This document shows, one piece after another, positions 11,355 to 20,478 of a stretch of DNA of 45,593 nt. The stretch is from Candidatus Woesebacteria bacterium RIFCSPHIGHO2_01_FULL_39_23 (GTDB lineage: Bacteria > Patescibacteriota > Microgenomatia > UBA8517): contig MGGH01000022.1 of assembly GCA_001792305.1 (NCBI GenBank), positions 15,916 to 61,508 on the forward strand, in the 5' to 3' direction. Made by a program: the position numbers and the translations under genes. Each line of letters starts with the position of its first letter. Position 1 is the first letter of the stretch. Below the pieces are notes generated by a model. The model was not told where the DNA came from. It saw only the letters and a list, made by a program, of their open reading frames with translations, and did not search any database.

Positions 11355-12605
11355 ATGGATAATTATGTAATTAAACAAGCTGGTATAATATCGAGAAAGA
11401 TTAGAAATTTAAGCAACTATAATAATTCCCAAAATTTAGTTCCAAATGTTTTTTTTGCAAAAACCATACTTTCCGAAGTTGAATTTTTAATAAAAAAAGT
11501 TCCTGAAATATATGAGGTCAATTCGGTTGAAGAACTATATATCTTGGAACTCAAGAGATATCTCGAATTAATAAGTGCTTTTTTGAAAAGGAAGATTGTA
11601 GGCAAACGACAAAATTGGGTAGAAATTAAAGAATTATATTACATCCAAGATGAAGACTTGCTACAGATAGAGAATTGGCTGAGAAGTAATAAGGAATTAA
11701 TTTTTGAAACAAGCAATAGACTTCTTAATTCTGACAAATTTGCAAACGTTGAAACTGTGCAATGGATTCCAAATTCATACAAAATTAAGGAAAAAATAGA
11801 GCGCGAGATGCTTAGATTAGTTGAAATTTTAGTACGTTTTACAAAAGACACGTTTGCTAAAAATGATGACCGTATAGCACAAGAATTTGATAATTATATA
11901 TTTGATTTCAACTATGATATTAGATCGTCAGTTTTTCGTGAGAACTCTAAGGCCGTGCTATTTAATATGAATAATATAGTTAACTTCCAAGAGGGAAAAC
12001 CTATTATTGATTTTGGTCTTTTTGTCGAGCATTTCGGCCACGAAGTATGGGGACATTGTATGAATCAAATCATGACAAGGATTTCGGATTTGCCAGAATT
12101 TCTAAAGATCCCTCAAACTGCTGCAAGTAAGACTATTGAAGAGTTGGTATCAATTTATTTTGAAAAAAAGATATTTGTTGTTTTAGAGGAAAAGCAAGAT
12201 TATTATGAAGAATTTCGTACAAATATTTCTTTCGCAGATTTTATAAAAGAATACAAAACTATCAAATTAATGCTTGATTATTCTAAAAAATTACGCGACT
12301 TTGTTATGTATCAAGTAATAACGTTTAATCAGATATCAGAAACAGACCTCCTCCGAAGAGTTGCTAAGTATTCCTTAAGTGAGGAATACGCGAAGTATTT
12401 GGTTAATACTAACATTAGGGAGTACAACTCAGGAAAAGGGTTTTTTGATGACCTATATTTCTTAAGATATCACTCTTTATTCTTGGATAAATTAATTAGC
12501 AACATTGATAAATCTAAAATAAATAAAGCCGAACGCGCTTTTTTAACAGGATATTGGTCTCCGGATGGACTAAAAGAGTGGATAAATTTGAATATTAATA
12601 AATGA
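11355..12605 (+). CDS. Hypothetical protein with HExxH (HEVWGH) motif, putative zincin
   Basis: Long ORF; start moved to ATG 11355 because the track start 11157 overlaps the zinc-ribbon ORF out of frame; FVEHFGHEVWGHCMNQ. Confidence 0.75.
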   Translation: MDNYVIKQAGIISRKIRNLSNYNNSQNLVPNVFFAKTILSEVEFLIKKVPEIYEVNSVEELYILELKRYLELISAFLKRKIVGKRQNWVEIKELYYIQDEDLLQIENWLRSNKELIFETSNRLLNSDKFANVETVQWIPNSYKIKEKIEREMLRLVEILVRFTKDTFAKNDDRIAQEFDNYIFDFNYDIRSSVFRENSKAVLFNMNNIVNFQEGKPIIDFGLFVEHFGHEVWGHCMNQIMTRISDLPEFLKIPQTAASKTIEELVSIYFEKKIFVVLEEKQDYYEEFRTNISFADFIKEYKTIKLMLDYSKKLRDFVMYQVITFNQISETDLLRRVAKYSLSEEYAKYLVNTNIREYNSGKGFFDDLYFLRYHSLFLDKLISNIDKSKINKAERAFLTGYWSPDGLKEWINLNINK

Positions 12606-13015
12606 CGAATAAAGTTAGATTAAGATGTATCCATTCTTGACTGGCAGAAGTTTATAAAAACAGGAGTTTCTTTACCTTTAGTTGATTTATTGATAGTAAA
12701 TGTTGTTTTTGCCACAATTTTTCACGAGTTTTTTGGACCATTCTTATCATAAACTTAACCAAAACCTAGAGGAGGTTTATAACGCCAAGGTCAAAGGAAC
12801 ATGGTGAAAGTTACTTCAGAACCAGCTTGGACTCTGGAAGACCAAATATCAGTAGATAGTAGTTAGTATCCGTACAAAGTAACTAGATATGCGACACTAG
12901 ATATTCCTCAGGTGTAGCAAAATTCAGACTAAAGTGTATCGGAAGTGTCGCATATGTGTTTACACAATTCGATAATTACAAACTAAAGTAAAATTGGTAT
13001 AAAATAAAGATTGTA

Positions 13016-13321
13016 GTGAAAATTGATATAAAAACAAAAGATCTTGAAATAACTGAATATATTCAAAAACTCGTCCAAAAAAAGCTCGTCTCAAAAATTG
13101 ACCGCGTTACCAAAAATCTTACGGACGACGAAAAAAAAGCAACACTAAGACTCAAAAAAAGAAGCAGATGGGGCTTTAGAGTAAATCTATCTATGTGGCT
13201 TCCCGGAAAACATCATATTTTCAGTGAAGAGATACATAAAGATTTGCAATCTGCGCTTGTCAACCTTCGCGAAGAAGTCATAAGCCAAATAAAAGAGTAC
13301 AAAGAAAAGCACAACAAATGA
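13016..13321 (+). CDS. Ribosome hibernation-promoting factor-like (HPF/RaiA) protein
   Basis: MKIDIKTKDLEITEYIQKLVQKKLVSKIDRVTKNL...; GTG start, extended -10 upstream. Confidence 0.75.
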   Translation: MKIDIKTKDLEITEYIQKLVQKKLVSKIDRVTKNLTDDEKKATLRLKKRSRWGFRVNLSMWLPGKHHIFSEEIHKDLQSALVNLREEVISQIKEYKEKHNK

Positions 13322-16219: not shown

Positions 16220-18376
16220 TCAATTAAGCGTAAGTACAATCTGAGGAATTTGAGAAGAATTACCCTCACCTGACGTGTAGTCGCCGCCGTCTGTGGATGT
16301 CGAATTAATTCTAAAACTATAAACCCCGTCACCAGTTATGTAACTTCCTATATTAACCTCGTACCATATACCTTTTTTTACCCTTCCCAAACTACCGAGA
16401 AAAGTTCCGGCAGAAGGCGCTGTATTCCAAGTCACAGAAGATTGACCCCAGTTGGTATCTGAAGAATAGAAATATCCTCCAATATTAGAACTCCCGACAC
16501 TATAAAGCCTCAATTTTGCGCTGATAACTTGGCTGCCGTTAACTCCCGTTATGTTAAATTTCACCAGGAAGTTTTTAACAGGACTATTATCAACTTCCAA
16601 TGTTGCAAGTGAACCGTAATTAGCGGAAGGATTTGCTTTATAAATTGAGGCATCGTCTGTTGGATTAAAAATCAAAGGTGAAGGAGTAGGAGTTGGTGTT
16701 GGTGTTGGAGTTGGTGTCGGTGTTAGTGTTGGTGTTACGGTGGGGGTAGGAGTCAACGTTGGCGTCGGACTTGGAGTTGGAGTTTCAACGGGCGTAGGTG
16801 TTGGACTCGGAGTGGGTGTTGGACTCGGTGTAGGAGAAGGAGCTGAACAGTCTTTGACTACACTATAATTATCAATCAACACCCCATTCGCATTATAGAA
16901 TTGGTAAGTAATATCAGATGTAGTTGCCGTAATAAGCATTGCCCCGCGATCCTCGTTATAACGCACGATAGAAGTGGCTTCAGGCGGCAAAGTTCCCAGA
17001 TTATCAAACGTATATAAAGATGCCCCTCCTGCTCCGTTTACAAAATAAGGAATTCCATTAACATCAATGCGTTCATAAAGATGGTCATGCCCGTTTAAAA
17101 CTACATCAGCACCCCAAGATGCAAATGGCCAGCGCATGGTGGTGGTGGAGCCATGACGACCTGATGAGTAGGGTGGGTGATGGAAATAAACCACATCATA
17201 GCAGGAGTTGGATGCGACCAGCTTGGTTTGCAACCAGTTTGCCTGAATCGAACTTATGCTCCTACCGTCGGGTTCTCCGGTATCACTATCTATGGCATAT
17301 AAATGGACCAAGCCCAGATCGACATCATAATAGCGTTCGTTATTGGGTAAGGTGAAGTAGTCGAAATACGCACCCGTACAACCTAGGATGTCACAGGTAA
17401 TTGTGTGCCAATCGTGATTCCCTAATGATGGCCAAAAACGGTTGATTGCACTACCTAAGCCAAAAGACCCTTGATAATTTCCAATATACTGACTGTAGTA
17501 TTTCCCGATATTTGCGTCAATCGTTGTGGCTTCACCATCCGGATAATTGTTGTCGCCGGTTGTAATCACATGGTCCGGATTCCAAGAATTTACAAGATTT
17601 GCGACTCGAGCTTCATTGGCATCGTCTGTACCAAAATCACCGATTACGGCAAAGCGTATTGTTCCTTCGGGGAAGGGTGTAGGAGAGGGGGTTGGAGTAG
17701 GAGTAAAAGTGGGGGTCGGAGTGGGGGTCGGAATGCCGCTGGGTAAAAAACTTATGACAAGCAGGGGGGCATTGGAAGCTTCCCCGTTATACGATTCAGC
17801 AGTTCTTCTTCCTGTTCCTTCAATCGTGATAACCAAAGAGTTACCGCTGATCCAGCCGGGTCTATTAACTATTTCTTGGATAATACCACCTAAATCTGGA
17901 GTAATCTTTTTTTCACTGATTACTGTCCAAGGCGGTATGTTATCCCAAGATATGGATGTATTAGTTACGGGACGAGAGGAGATATTTGTAGTTTGATTTA
18001 CGAATGTTACAGGGTTATCAGAGCTTTCACCCCTGATTGTTACATATGTCGAGCCGCTTTGTGACTCGTCAACCTCAAACTCTATATAGGCACTGGTAAT
18101 AATTGCTCCCTGCGGAATTTGCAGATTATTAAAGCGCATTCCTACCAATTGAAGTACAGAACCCTCAGCCCCCAACTCCAAATCGCTACTAGAAAGGCCC
18201 ACAGAGCCGCTACCAATCGCCTCTTCCGCATCGTCAGATGATGAATTCACACGGCTTGAGATTGTTGTGGGATCTGGAGTTTGAGAAAGGATTTTCGAAG
18301 GGCGGAGGAAAACAAAATAAAGTAGTATCAGTAAAGGTAAGAAAACAAATTTTGATTTAAGCGAAAATGTTTTCAC
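16220..18376 (-). CDS. Secreted metallophosphoesterase flanked by PT-rich linkers and DNRLRE/CBM-like beta domains
   Basis: [17 protein letters not shown]...[11 protein letters not shown]...SLGNHDWH...[10 protein letters not shown] metallophosphoesterase motifs; (PT)n linkers; N- and C-terminal WNTAP/DDASIY-type domains; GTG start. Confidence 0.9.
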
Positions 18377-18716: not shown

Positions 18717-19040
18717 ATGAAACTTGGCATTATTCTTTCAACCAACAGTGGAGAAACTAACTGGAATGCTTTAAGACTTGCAAACTTAGCTTTATCCAAA
18801 GGTGATACCGTCTCTATTTTTCTTGTCAGTGAGGGTGTGGAGTACCAACAGTCAAGTTCTCCCAAGTTTAATATCAAAGAACAAGTTGAAAAGTTTTTGT
18901 CATCCGACAAGGCAAAGATTCTCGCCTGTGGTACATGCCTCGCAATCCGCAAACAAGAGAGTGACCAAGAATGTCCTGAAGGTAGACTTGAAGATTTTTA
19001 CGATTTGGTTGCTGAAAATGATAAGGTGCTTACCTTTTGA
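18717..19040 (+). CDS. DsrE/DsrF-like sulfur-relay family protein
   Basis: MKLGIILSTNSGETNWNALRLANLALSKGDTVSIFLVSEGVE...ILACGTCLAIR. Confidence 0.85.
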   Translation: MKLGIILSTNSGETNWNALRLANLALSKGDTVSIFLVSEGVEYQQSSSPKFNIKEQVEKFLSSDKAKILACGTCLAIRKQESDQECPEGRLEDFYDLVAENDKVLTF

Positions 19041-19725
19041 AAAGGATAAACCTATAAAAAAGATATTACTGATTGCCATTTTTTTATTCACTTTGTTACT
19101 AACACCATCTGCAACCTTTGCTCAGGGCATGATGGGTAACTGGACGAGTTCACCATCATCCGTGACCTCTGACGACCACACTGCTCGTGAAGAAATTGAA
19201 GGAAAAGAAATCTGGGATAAACTCCAAACAAAACAGCTTGAATGTAAGAATCTTACAGATGAGAACTACGGTTCATTAGGTGAATACTACATGGGACAGA
19301 TGATGGGAAACTCACACGCGGCAATGAATACGATGATGGAGCGGATGATGGGCAAGGAGGGTGAAGAACAAATGCACATTGTTATGGGAAAAAGACTAAG
19401 TGGTTGTGATACTTCTGCTCAACTTCCGCAGAATGGAGTAGGTTTTATACCGATGATGTGGATGATGGGAGGAGGTGGTAATCCTATGATGGGAAGTTTA
19501 GGTATTAATCCGATGGGTTCCTTTGGATGGGGTTTTGGCTTGACTTTTATGATTCTGTTCTGGGGTCTTGTTATTCTAGCCATTGTCGCCTTGGTTAAAT
19601 GGGTTGCAAGTAAAGGGAAGAGCCAAACACAAGAGAAATCCGCCTTAGATATCCTCAAAGAGCGCTATGTTAAAGGCGAGATCGACAAAAAAGAGTTTGA
19701 ACAGATGAAAAAGGAACTCGCCTAA
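19018..19725 (+). CDS. Met-rich secreted/membrane protein with C-terminal SHOCT domain
   Basis: Signal peptide-like segment; repeated MMG motifs; TM; SALDILKERYVKGEIDKKEFEQMKKEL SHOCT; ATG 19018 preferred. Confidence 0.8.
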   Translation: MIRCLPFEKDKPIKKILLIAIFLFTLLLTPSATFAQGMMGNWTSSPSSVTSDDHTAREEIEGKEIWDKLQTKQLECKNLTDENYGSLGEYYMGQMMGNSHAAMNTMMERMMGKEGEEQMHIVMGKRLSGCDTSAQLPQNGVGFIPMMWMMGGGGNPMMGSLGINPMGSFGWGFGLTFMILFWGLVILAIVALVKWVASKGKSQTQEKSALDILKERYVKGEIDKKEFEQMKKELA

Positions 19726-19745: not shown

Positions 19746-20375
19746 TTACGGCTGCTTACCTTTCCAGATCCAAATCATAGCTTCCTTGAAAATAACGATC
19801 CACCAGAACAGCCAAAATACCCACGGAAAAAGCCACCAAACCCAGATCCACCACACCCACCAAATAAGCCAAAACTGCCAGGCCAGGAAAAGCCATGGGA
19901 TGAACCAAAAAACAGGTACCCAGAACCACCAAGGCCAAGGCCAGCCAAATCCCCAGAATTTAAACCGTGCCCATTGCCACCCTACAAAAACCCACACAAA
20001 AATCCACAAGACTCCAGCCAAGAAGCCCGTCACCCACCACCACGACAGCCAGTTACTCACTCTCGCGTCACCCTGATAATCTTTTGCTTTACTCTCCAAG
20101 TTGCTAACTTTATTTGGCAAATCCTGCAACTTCAAGAGCTCTTCTTCCAAAATATTCTGCGTCTCTTTTGTTGGTGGTACTTCTCCCTCTGGTTTTTGGT
20201 TGATAACTGTAGTTGACTGCGTAGGTTGGGGTAGTGGACTATGTATTCCCTGAAGTTCCATCTGACCGAATTCAGTTTTTATTTCCGCAGTTTGTCCCCA
20301 TACTTCACTTCCAAAAAAAGCTACAGTAAATAGCAATATCCCTACTAGACTAGTCATCCAAGCAAATTTTGTCAT
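19746..20375 (-). CDS. Extremely Trp-rich membrane protein
   Basis: Signal-like N-terminus, then about 100 aa containing about 31 Trp; strong purine-rich SD. Confidence 0.8.
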   Translation of the reverse strand: MTKFAWMTSLVGILLFTVAFFGSEVWGQTAEIKTEFGQMELQGIHSPLPQPTQSTTVINQKPEGEVPPTKETQNILEEELLKLQDLPNKVSNLESKAKDYQGDARVSNWLSWWWVTGFLAGVLWIFVWVFVGWQWARFKFWGFGWPWPWWFWVPVFWFIPWLFLAWQFWLIWWVWWIWVWWLFPWVFWLFWWIVIFKEAMIWIWKGKQP

Positions 20376-20478
20376 TTTTTTCGCCCCCTCCCTTGGTTGA
20401 GGGAAGTATAAACTTCTCCGGCAAAAAATGCTAGAGTTTTTCTAAAAGGTCAATCCGCCCTTTTTGGGCTTCCGAATA

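Follow-up and report, generated by a model that had tools for sequence, protein, structure and literature searches.

A tryptophan-packed, predicted membrane module conserved in scattered Patescibacteria

A gene in the window (the whole 45,593-nucleotide stretch of a Woesebacteria contig that was analysed) encodes a protein whose C-terminal part, here called the W module, carries about 30 Trp per 100 residues. With moderate confidence, we read this part as a membrane module not described before and, within the searches made, confined to Patescibacteria. Its Trp would form an indole-specific packed array with a function of its own (a self-assembling platform, a lipid organiser or a ligand cage), and the module would be joined to lineage-specific exposed domains. 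The curated libraries searched contain no protein module like it. No amino acid is rarer or costlier than Trp, which usually accounts for ~1% of protein; very small genomes nevertheless keep this ~30% Trp module, position by position, across several deep lineages. Since the pattern is strictly kept in distantly related ultra-small bacteria, the Trp themselves must matter, presumably in a membrane role. The module thus offers a natural test case for how indole serves in membranes, be it by packing helices, anchoring at the interface or binding ligands, and one more uncharacterised family is now known from this large, mostly uncultured bacterial group.

The gene and its protein in the window

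The protein is read from the minus strand and starts with ATG. Its parts, and the features around its start, are as follows (all on the minus strand of the window).

19746–20375: Trp-rich membrane protein gene, 209 aa; open reading frame with homologues 48–67% identical and purifying selection in the Trp frame
20384–20392: Shine-Dalgarno-like purine-rich stretch GGGAGGGGG just upstream of the ATG, read from the sequence
20295–20375: predicted signal-peptide-like hydrophobic leader, ~residues 1–27 (hydrophobic peak at residues 4–22)
20160–20294: Pro/Gln/Thr-rich linker, ~residues 28–72, predicted to be disordered (pLDDT <50 at residues 37–65)
20064–20159: predicted helical or coiled-coil region, ~residues 73–104, continuing into the first membrane helix (model helices 70–84 and 86–140)
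19755–20063: W module, residues 105–207, 31 Trp, the conserved family core (ungapped 103-column alignment of 6 proteins)
19971–20051: predicted first membrane helix, ~residues 109–135 (...GFxxGILWLFxWVFVGWQW), from hydrophobicity and the periodicity of invariant positions (p=0.004)
19932–19970: loop, ~residues 136–148, proposed to be cytoplasmic, with conserved [R/H]x[K/R] and WxFxWPxP (alignment, charge map and the inter-helix break in both models)
19788–19931: uncharged Trp-packed helical stretch of 48 residues, ~149–196 (model helix 149–206; helical periodicity p=0.007)
19749–19787: C-terminal tail with FKExxIWxW and basic residues (invariant F, K, E, I and W columns)

The whole protein contains 33 Trp, of which 31 lie inside the 103 residues of the W module, and the original prediction of about 31 in roughly the last 100 residues, like the peptide quoted with it, was correct. 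At 1.2% Trp, at least 31 in 103 would arise by chance with a probability of ~2e-34 (binomial); no other frame of at least 90 codons in the window exceeds 9 Trp per 103 aa. A tandem array of TGG as the source of the module was rejected on inspection of the DNA. The predicted order of parts, from a signal-like leader through a Pro/Gln-rich region and a short coiled coil to a Trp-packed C-terminus, is borne out by hydrophobicity and by the structural model, and a comparable N-terminal leader opens every homologue. GAGG-type sites also lie upstream of the starts at two homologue loci (L004 and L007).

Searches of Pfam, NCBIfam, PHROGs and PADLOC returned nothing meaningful (the Pfam search covered the window protein and four homologues), and we found no paper on a Trp-rich family in this bacterial group. 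The earlier statement that no named family is known with this composition agrees with these results and with those for PDB sequences, among which the only match was CrgA, an actinobacterial cell-division protein that is likewise a short, Trp-containing membrane protein. The W module matched it at E=1.2 (12.6 bits), and a longer, compositionally biased profile at E=0.0056; we treated both as chance matches without significance, and rejected kinship with CrgA.

Homologues and selection on the W module

The original prediction had made the existence of homologues a test of the protein, and five were found: one each in Woesebacteria, WWE3 and Kerfeldbacteria and two in the Saccharibacteria group. 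The homologue from the window's own family (Woesebacteria record MGGJ01000007) is 48% identical, with E=2e-59. Over the W module the six proteins align in 103 columns with 0 gaps; 44 of the 103 columns are invariant, and 24 of these 44 are Trp.

Because Trp has a single codon, the evidence for selection comes from the non-Trp positions. In the Trp frame, every pair of sequences gave pS of 0.56–0.95 and pN of 0.12–0.29, a ratio of 0.20–0.37. Four of the five remaining frames had pN/pS of ~1 or above. The complementary frame −1, which mirrors the third position, had ratios of 0.37–0.61, always above those of the Trp frame, and is broken by a stop in 2 of the 6 sequences. At invariant Gly, Pro and Ile codons the third base varies between genomes, as a coding frame predicts. 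By this codon comparison, the open reading frame at 19746–20375 is shown to be a genuine gene under purifying selection, and its product is probably translated. The pattern favours the Trp frame and not the opposite strand, which had been raised as a possible refutation. It agrees with the suggestion of real expression, and the Shine-Dalgarno-like GGGAGGGGG does precede the ATG where a strong site had been noted.

We therefore give next to no weight to the explanation that the frame is an artefact, an accidental opening beside or opposite a Gly-rich or other gene. Such Trp-rich shadow frames do arise from Gly-rich repeats: 120 stretches on viral contigs (L025–L144) matched the W spacing at the DNA level, and those inspected resemble shadows of Gly-rich repeats. 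Against this origin stand the ungapped conservation across several lineages, the near-saturated synonymous change and low pN/pS in the Trp frame, the stops in most of the other frames, and the leaders and ribosome sites that the homologues possess. The codon test refutes a shadow-frame or antisense origin. On many viral contigs TGG-rich DNA reads as long Trp-rich shadow frames, so that a Trp-rich open reading frame alone is poor evidence of a gene.

Conservation within the module is selective. Pairwise residue comparisons preserved Trp in 89% of cases (91% in the core), where BLOSUM62 would predict ~54%, and I/L/V in 44%, where it would predict ~25–37%; Pro (89%), Gly (73%) and Phe (70%) were also conserved, the Pro and Gly as in packed helices. 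Since aliphatic residues swap freely and indole does not, the module differs from a generic hydrophobic anchor, and indole seems to be specifically required there, not just hydrophobicity. The conserved positions recur at ~95–100 degrees (p=0.004 for helix 1, p=0.007 for the long segment). The alignment thus shows selection on the Trp residues of the module, and a helical pattern.

Predicted membrane arrangement and possible roles

A leader and a hydrophobic anchor are present in both the hydrophobicity profile and the AlphaFold models, and the product would accordingly be of the general kind of Sec-exported, membrane-anchored surface proteins. The model of the window protein has helices at 86–140 and 149–206 (mean pLDDT 73.6), and that of a Saccharibacteria protein repeats this layout of two helices after a beta-rich domain, with the helices linked in both through a WPWP loop; both models were built on 4–6 sequences only, with pTM of 0.30 and 0.40, respectively. 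Foldseek found no match in the PDB to the model of the window protein. Together, model and periodicity point to an alpha-helical W module, which speaks against the suggested interfacial sheet, if a beta sheet was meant. Among the roles originally proposed, an envelope anchor fits best.

The second helix is drawn as 58 unbroken residues, 48 of them uncharged; this is too long for one ordinary span and at odds with three simple spans. Residues ~149–196 may be a single very long helix, as modelled, or a pair of membrane helices joined by a tight turn. Homologues tolerate D or G at module positions 66–67 and P at position 70, and this tolerance may mark a turn between two spans. The charge map places basic residues in the inter-helix loop and at the C-terminus. 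Under the positive-inside rule, this distribution would suit an N-out, C-in topology.

The W module is the most conserved part of the six proteins, and what precedes it differs between branches. In the first architecture (the window protein and that of the other Woesebacteria genome), the leader is followed by the Pro/Gln/Thr linker, the coiled coil and the module. In the second (WWE3, Kerfeldbacteria and the two Saccharibacteria-group proteins), it is followed by a predicted Ig-like domain of ~105 aa, a variable linker (Ser/Thr-rich in three of the four proteins) and the module. The alignments thus show modular proteins, with differing N-terminal parts on one module. The ~105-aa Cys domain lies at these positions of the homologue loci.

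L005, 1253–1567: ~105-aa Cys domain
L006, 7530–7844: ~105-aa Cys domain
L007, 7578–7892: ~105-aa Cys domain
L017, 1897–2211: ~105-aa Cys domain

This domain has two invariant Cys and the motifs FPFGHxNE, QDVRxQLPI and CSTRGP. Pfam gave no match to it, and among 68 genomes it occurred only fused to the W module, bar one marginal match (E=0.025, in genome G741); we regard it as an undescribed domain, predicted to be extracytoplasmic. Because the beta-rich model of the long homologue gave only weak, mixed Foldseek matches, many of them to beta-sandwich domains, "Ig-like" describes the model and does not assign a family.

Our working model, preferred but still tentative, is that the protein forms a membrane platform that holds its exposed N-terminal part, being Sec-exported and anchored by a helical, probably self-assembling W module. 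Guided by the leader, the linker and coiled coil at the N-terminus would end up outside. The ~100 residues of the module would then enter the membrane as helix 1, a basic cytoplasmic loop and the long Trp-packed segment, most likely two further spans, leaving the basic C-terminus inside. Indoles of neighbouring helices and subunits would stack, making the Trp array a device for packing and for contact with the lipid interface, and the module would become a rigid, probably oligomeric platform for the exposed part, a coiled coil in the window's branch and the predicted Ig-like domain with its two invariant Cys elsewhere. The topology, the oligomerisation and the function of the exposed part are those we infer. 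Designed WALP/GWALP transmembrane peptides are helices held at the lipid interface by Trp (PMC7072424); they have few Trp, at their ends only, whereas the W module has them throughout the segment.

It is unlikely, in our judgement, that the module is instead a carrier or sensor that binds a flat hydrophobic ligand (heme or another porphyrin, a quinone, a carotenoid or a sterol-like lipid) between stacked indoles. The exact conservation of Trp would suit such a role, and known proteins have Trp-rich membrane regions that bind tetrapyrroles, WWD (PMC10746174) and TSPO (PMC4926414). However, none of the module's invariant residues is His, Cys or Met, Pfam gave no match to heme-handling or TspO models, CrgA at E=1.2 was the only match among PDB sequences, and the stretches examined hold no heme-related neighbour. 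Nor did the proteins belong to either known group. TspO/MBR (PF03073) resembles the W-module protein in being a small, Trp-rich, helical bacterial membrane protein, but it has far fewer Trp and lacks a Sec leader with an exposed domain; it has five membrane helices (PMC8243069), against two helical stretches after the leader and 2–3 spans at most in the W module, and neither the TspO_MBR profile nor a PDB sequence of it was matched. The WWD-domain heme-handling proteins (CcmC, CcmF, CcsBA) also have a Trp-rich region at the membrane, and a pair of conserved periplasmic His, which bind heme, flanks it (PMC10746174); the six-protein alignment of the W module has no invariant His, and no cytochrome c assembly profile of Pfam or NCBIfam matched.

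Still less likely, we think, is a membrane-active surface effector: on contact, its W module would be exposed or set free and would insert into the membrane of a competitor or host cell. Three points would favour an effector: some Patescibacteria live as surface-attached symbionts, many Trp-rich peptides disrupt membranes, and the N-terminal parts differ between branches. Yet no immunity-like or export partner lies alongside the gene at the six loci, no defence or phage family was matched, there is one copy per genome, and so hydrophobic a module, once exported by a Sec leader, would settle in the membrane of its own cell. We rate as equally improbable a pore or mechanosensitive-type channel with a Trp-lined gate or lipid contacts: the small size, the several spans, the kinks at Gly and Pro and the invariant Gln, Lys and Glu of the module might suit one, but the long segment is nearly devoid of polar residues to line a pore, and no channel family matched. 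The redox or UV-protective layer originally suggested, in which the Trp array would be a chain that conducts by hole hopping or protects as an antioxidant or UV shield, is very improbable. The Trp are spaced i+3/i+4/i+7 along the long helix, which would favour such a chain, but the loci lack a redox cofactor partner, and the patchy distribution is tied to no visible redox gene.

Distribution and gene neighbourhood

The window's genome is of Patescibacteria type (0.85 Mb in 37 contigs), and all the named homologue records are Patescibacteria. A scan of ~85,000 species genomes returned at least four loci, in Woesebacteria, WWE3, Kerfeldbacteria and Saccharibacteria; this count is a lower bound because the scan used two exact peptide patterns, which the sixth member, from a genome of the same order as the Saccharibacteria record, would have escaped. 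The family is rare and patchy: it occurs in 2 of 50 genomes of the window's family, 2 of 295 of the Saccharibacteria order and 1 of 380 sampled across the phylum, with one copy per genome. A second genome of the genus, the only one examined besides the window's own and 98% complete, lacked a homologue. With 1 in 380 sampled phylum genomes, the protein is not a basic envelope part of the group. No relative was confirmed among viral contigs, plasmids or phage records, nothing matched in PHROGs, and a phage- or plasmid-borne family was rejected. When a tree was built from the W module, Kerfeldbacteria and Saccharibacteria-group proteins fell together (97/98) and WWE3 had a long branch; with six short rows, the tree does not settle transfer against loss.

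In the window, the gene is convergent to genes for a DsrE-like and a SHOCT-domain protein and co-directional with methyltransferase and NUDIX genes. A conserved operon was sought across the six loci and no recurring neighbour was found; DUF4349, NAD(P)H-hydrate dehydratase, ATP-grasp, amidohydrolase and glycoside hydrolase neighbours vary from genome to genome. The start of the gene overlaps the end of the DUF4349 gene in WWE3, and its stop overlaps the start of the NAD(P)H-hydrate dehydratase gene in Saccharibacteria, so that it joins different operons. Such unconserved neighbours suit a self-contained protein. Several neighbours are of surface type (fn3/carboxypeptidase-regulatory-like, CBM96, GH113, collagen-binding), which lends slight support to an envelope role.

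Two further features of the window were observed. The convergent DsrE-like gene (18717–19040, plus strand) is followed, within 18717–19725, by the gene of a short membrane protein that ends in a SHOCT domain and has many MMG/MMW-type Met clusters; its Met-rich part could bind metal. At 16220–18376 (minus strand) lies a gene for a secreted-looking calcineurin-like phosphoesterase with a CBM96 carbohydrate-binding module. At locus L004, a C-terminal segment of similar appearance (12260–13150) is found close to the Trp-rich gene.
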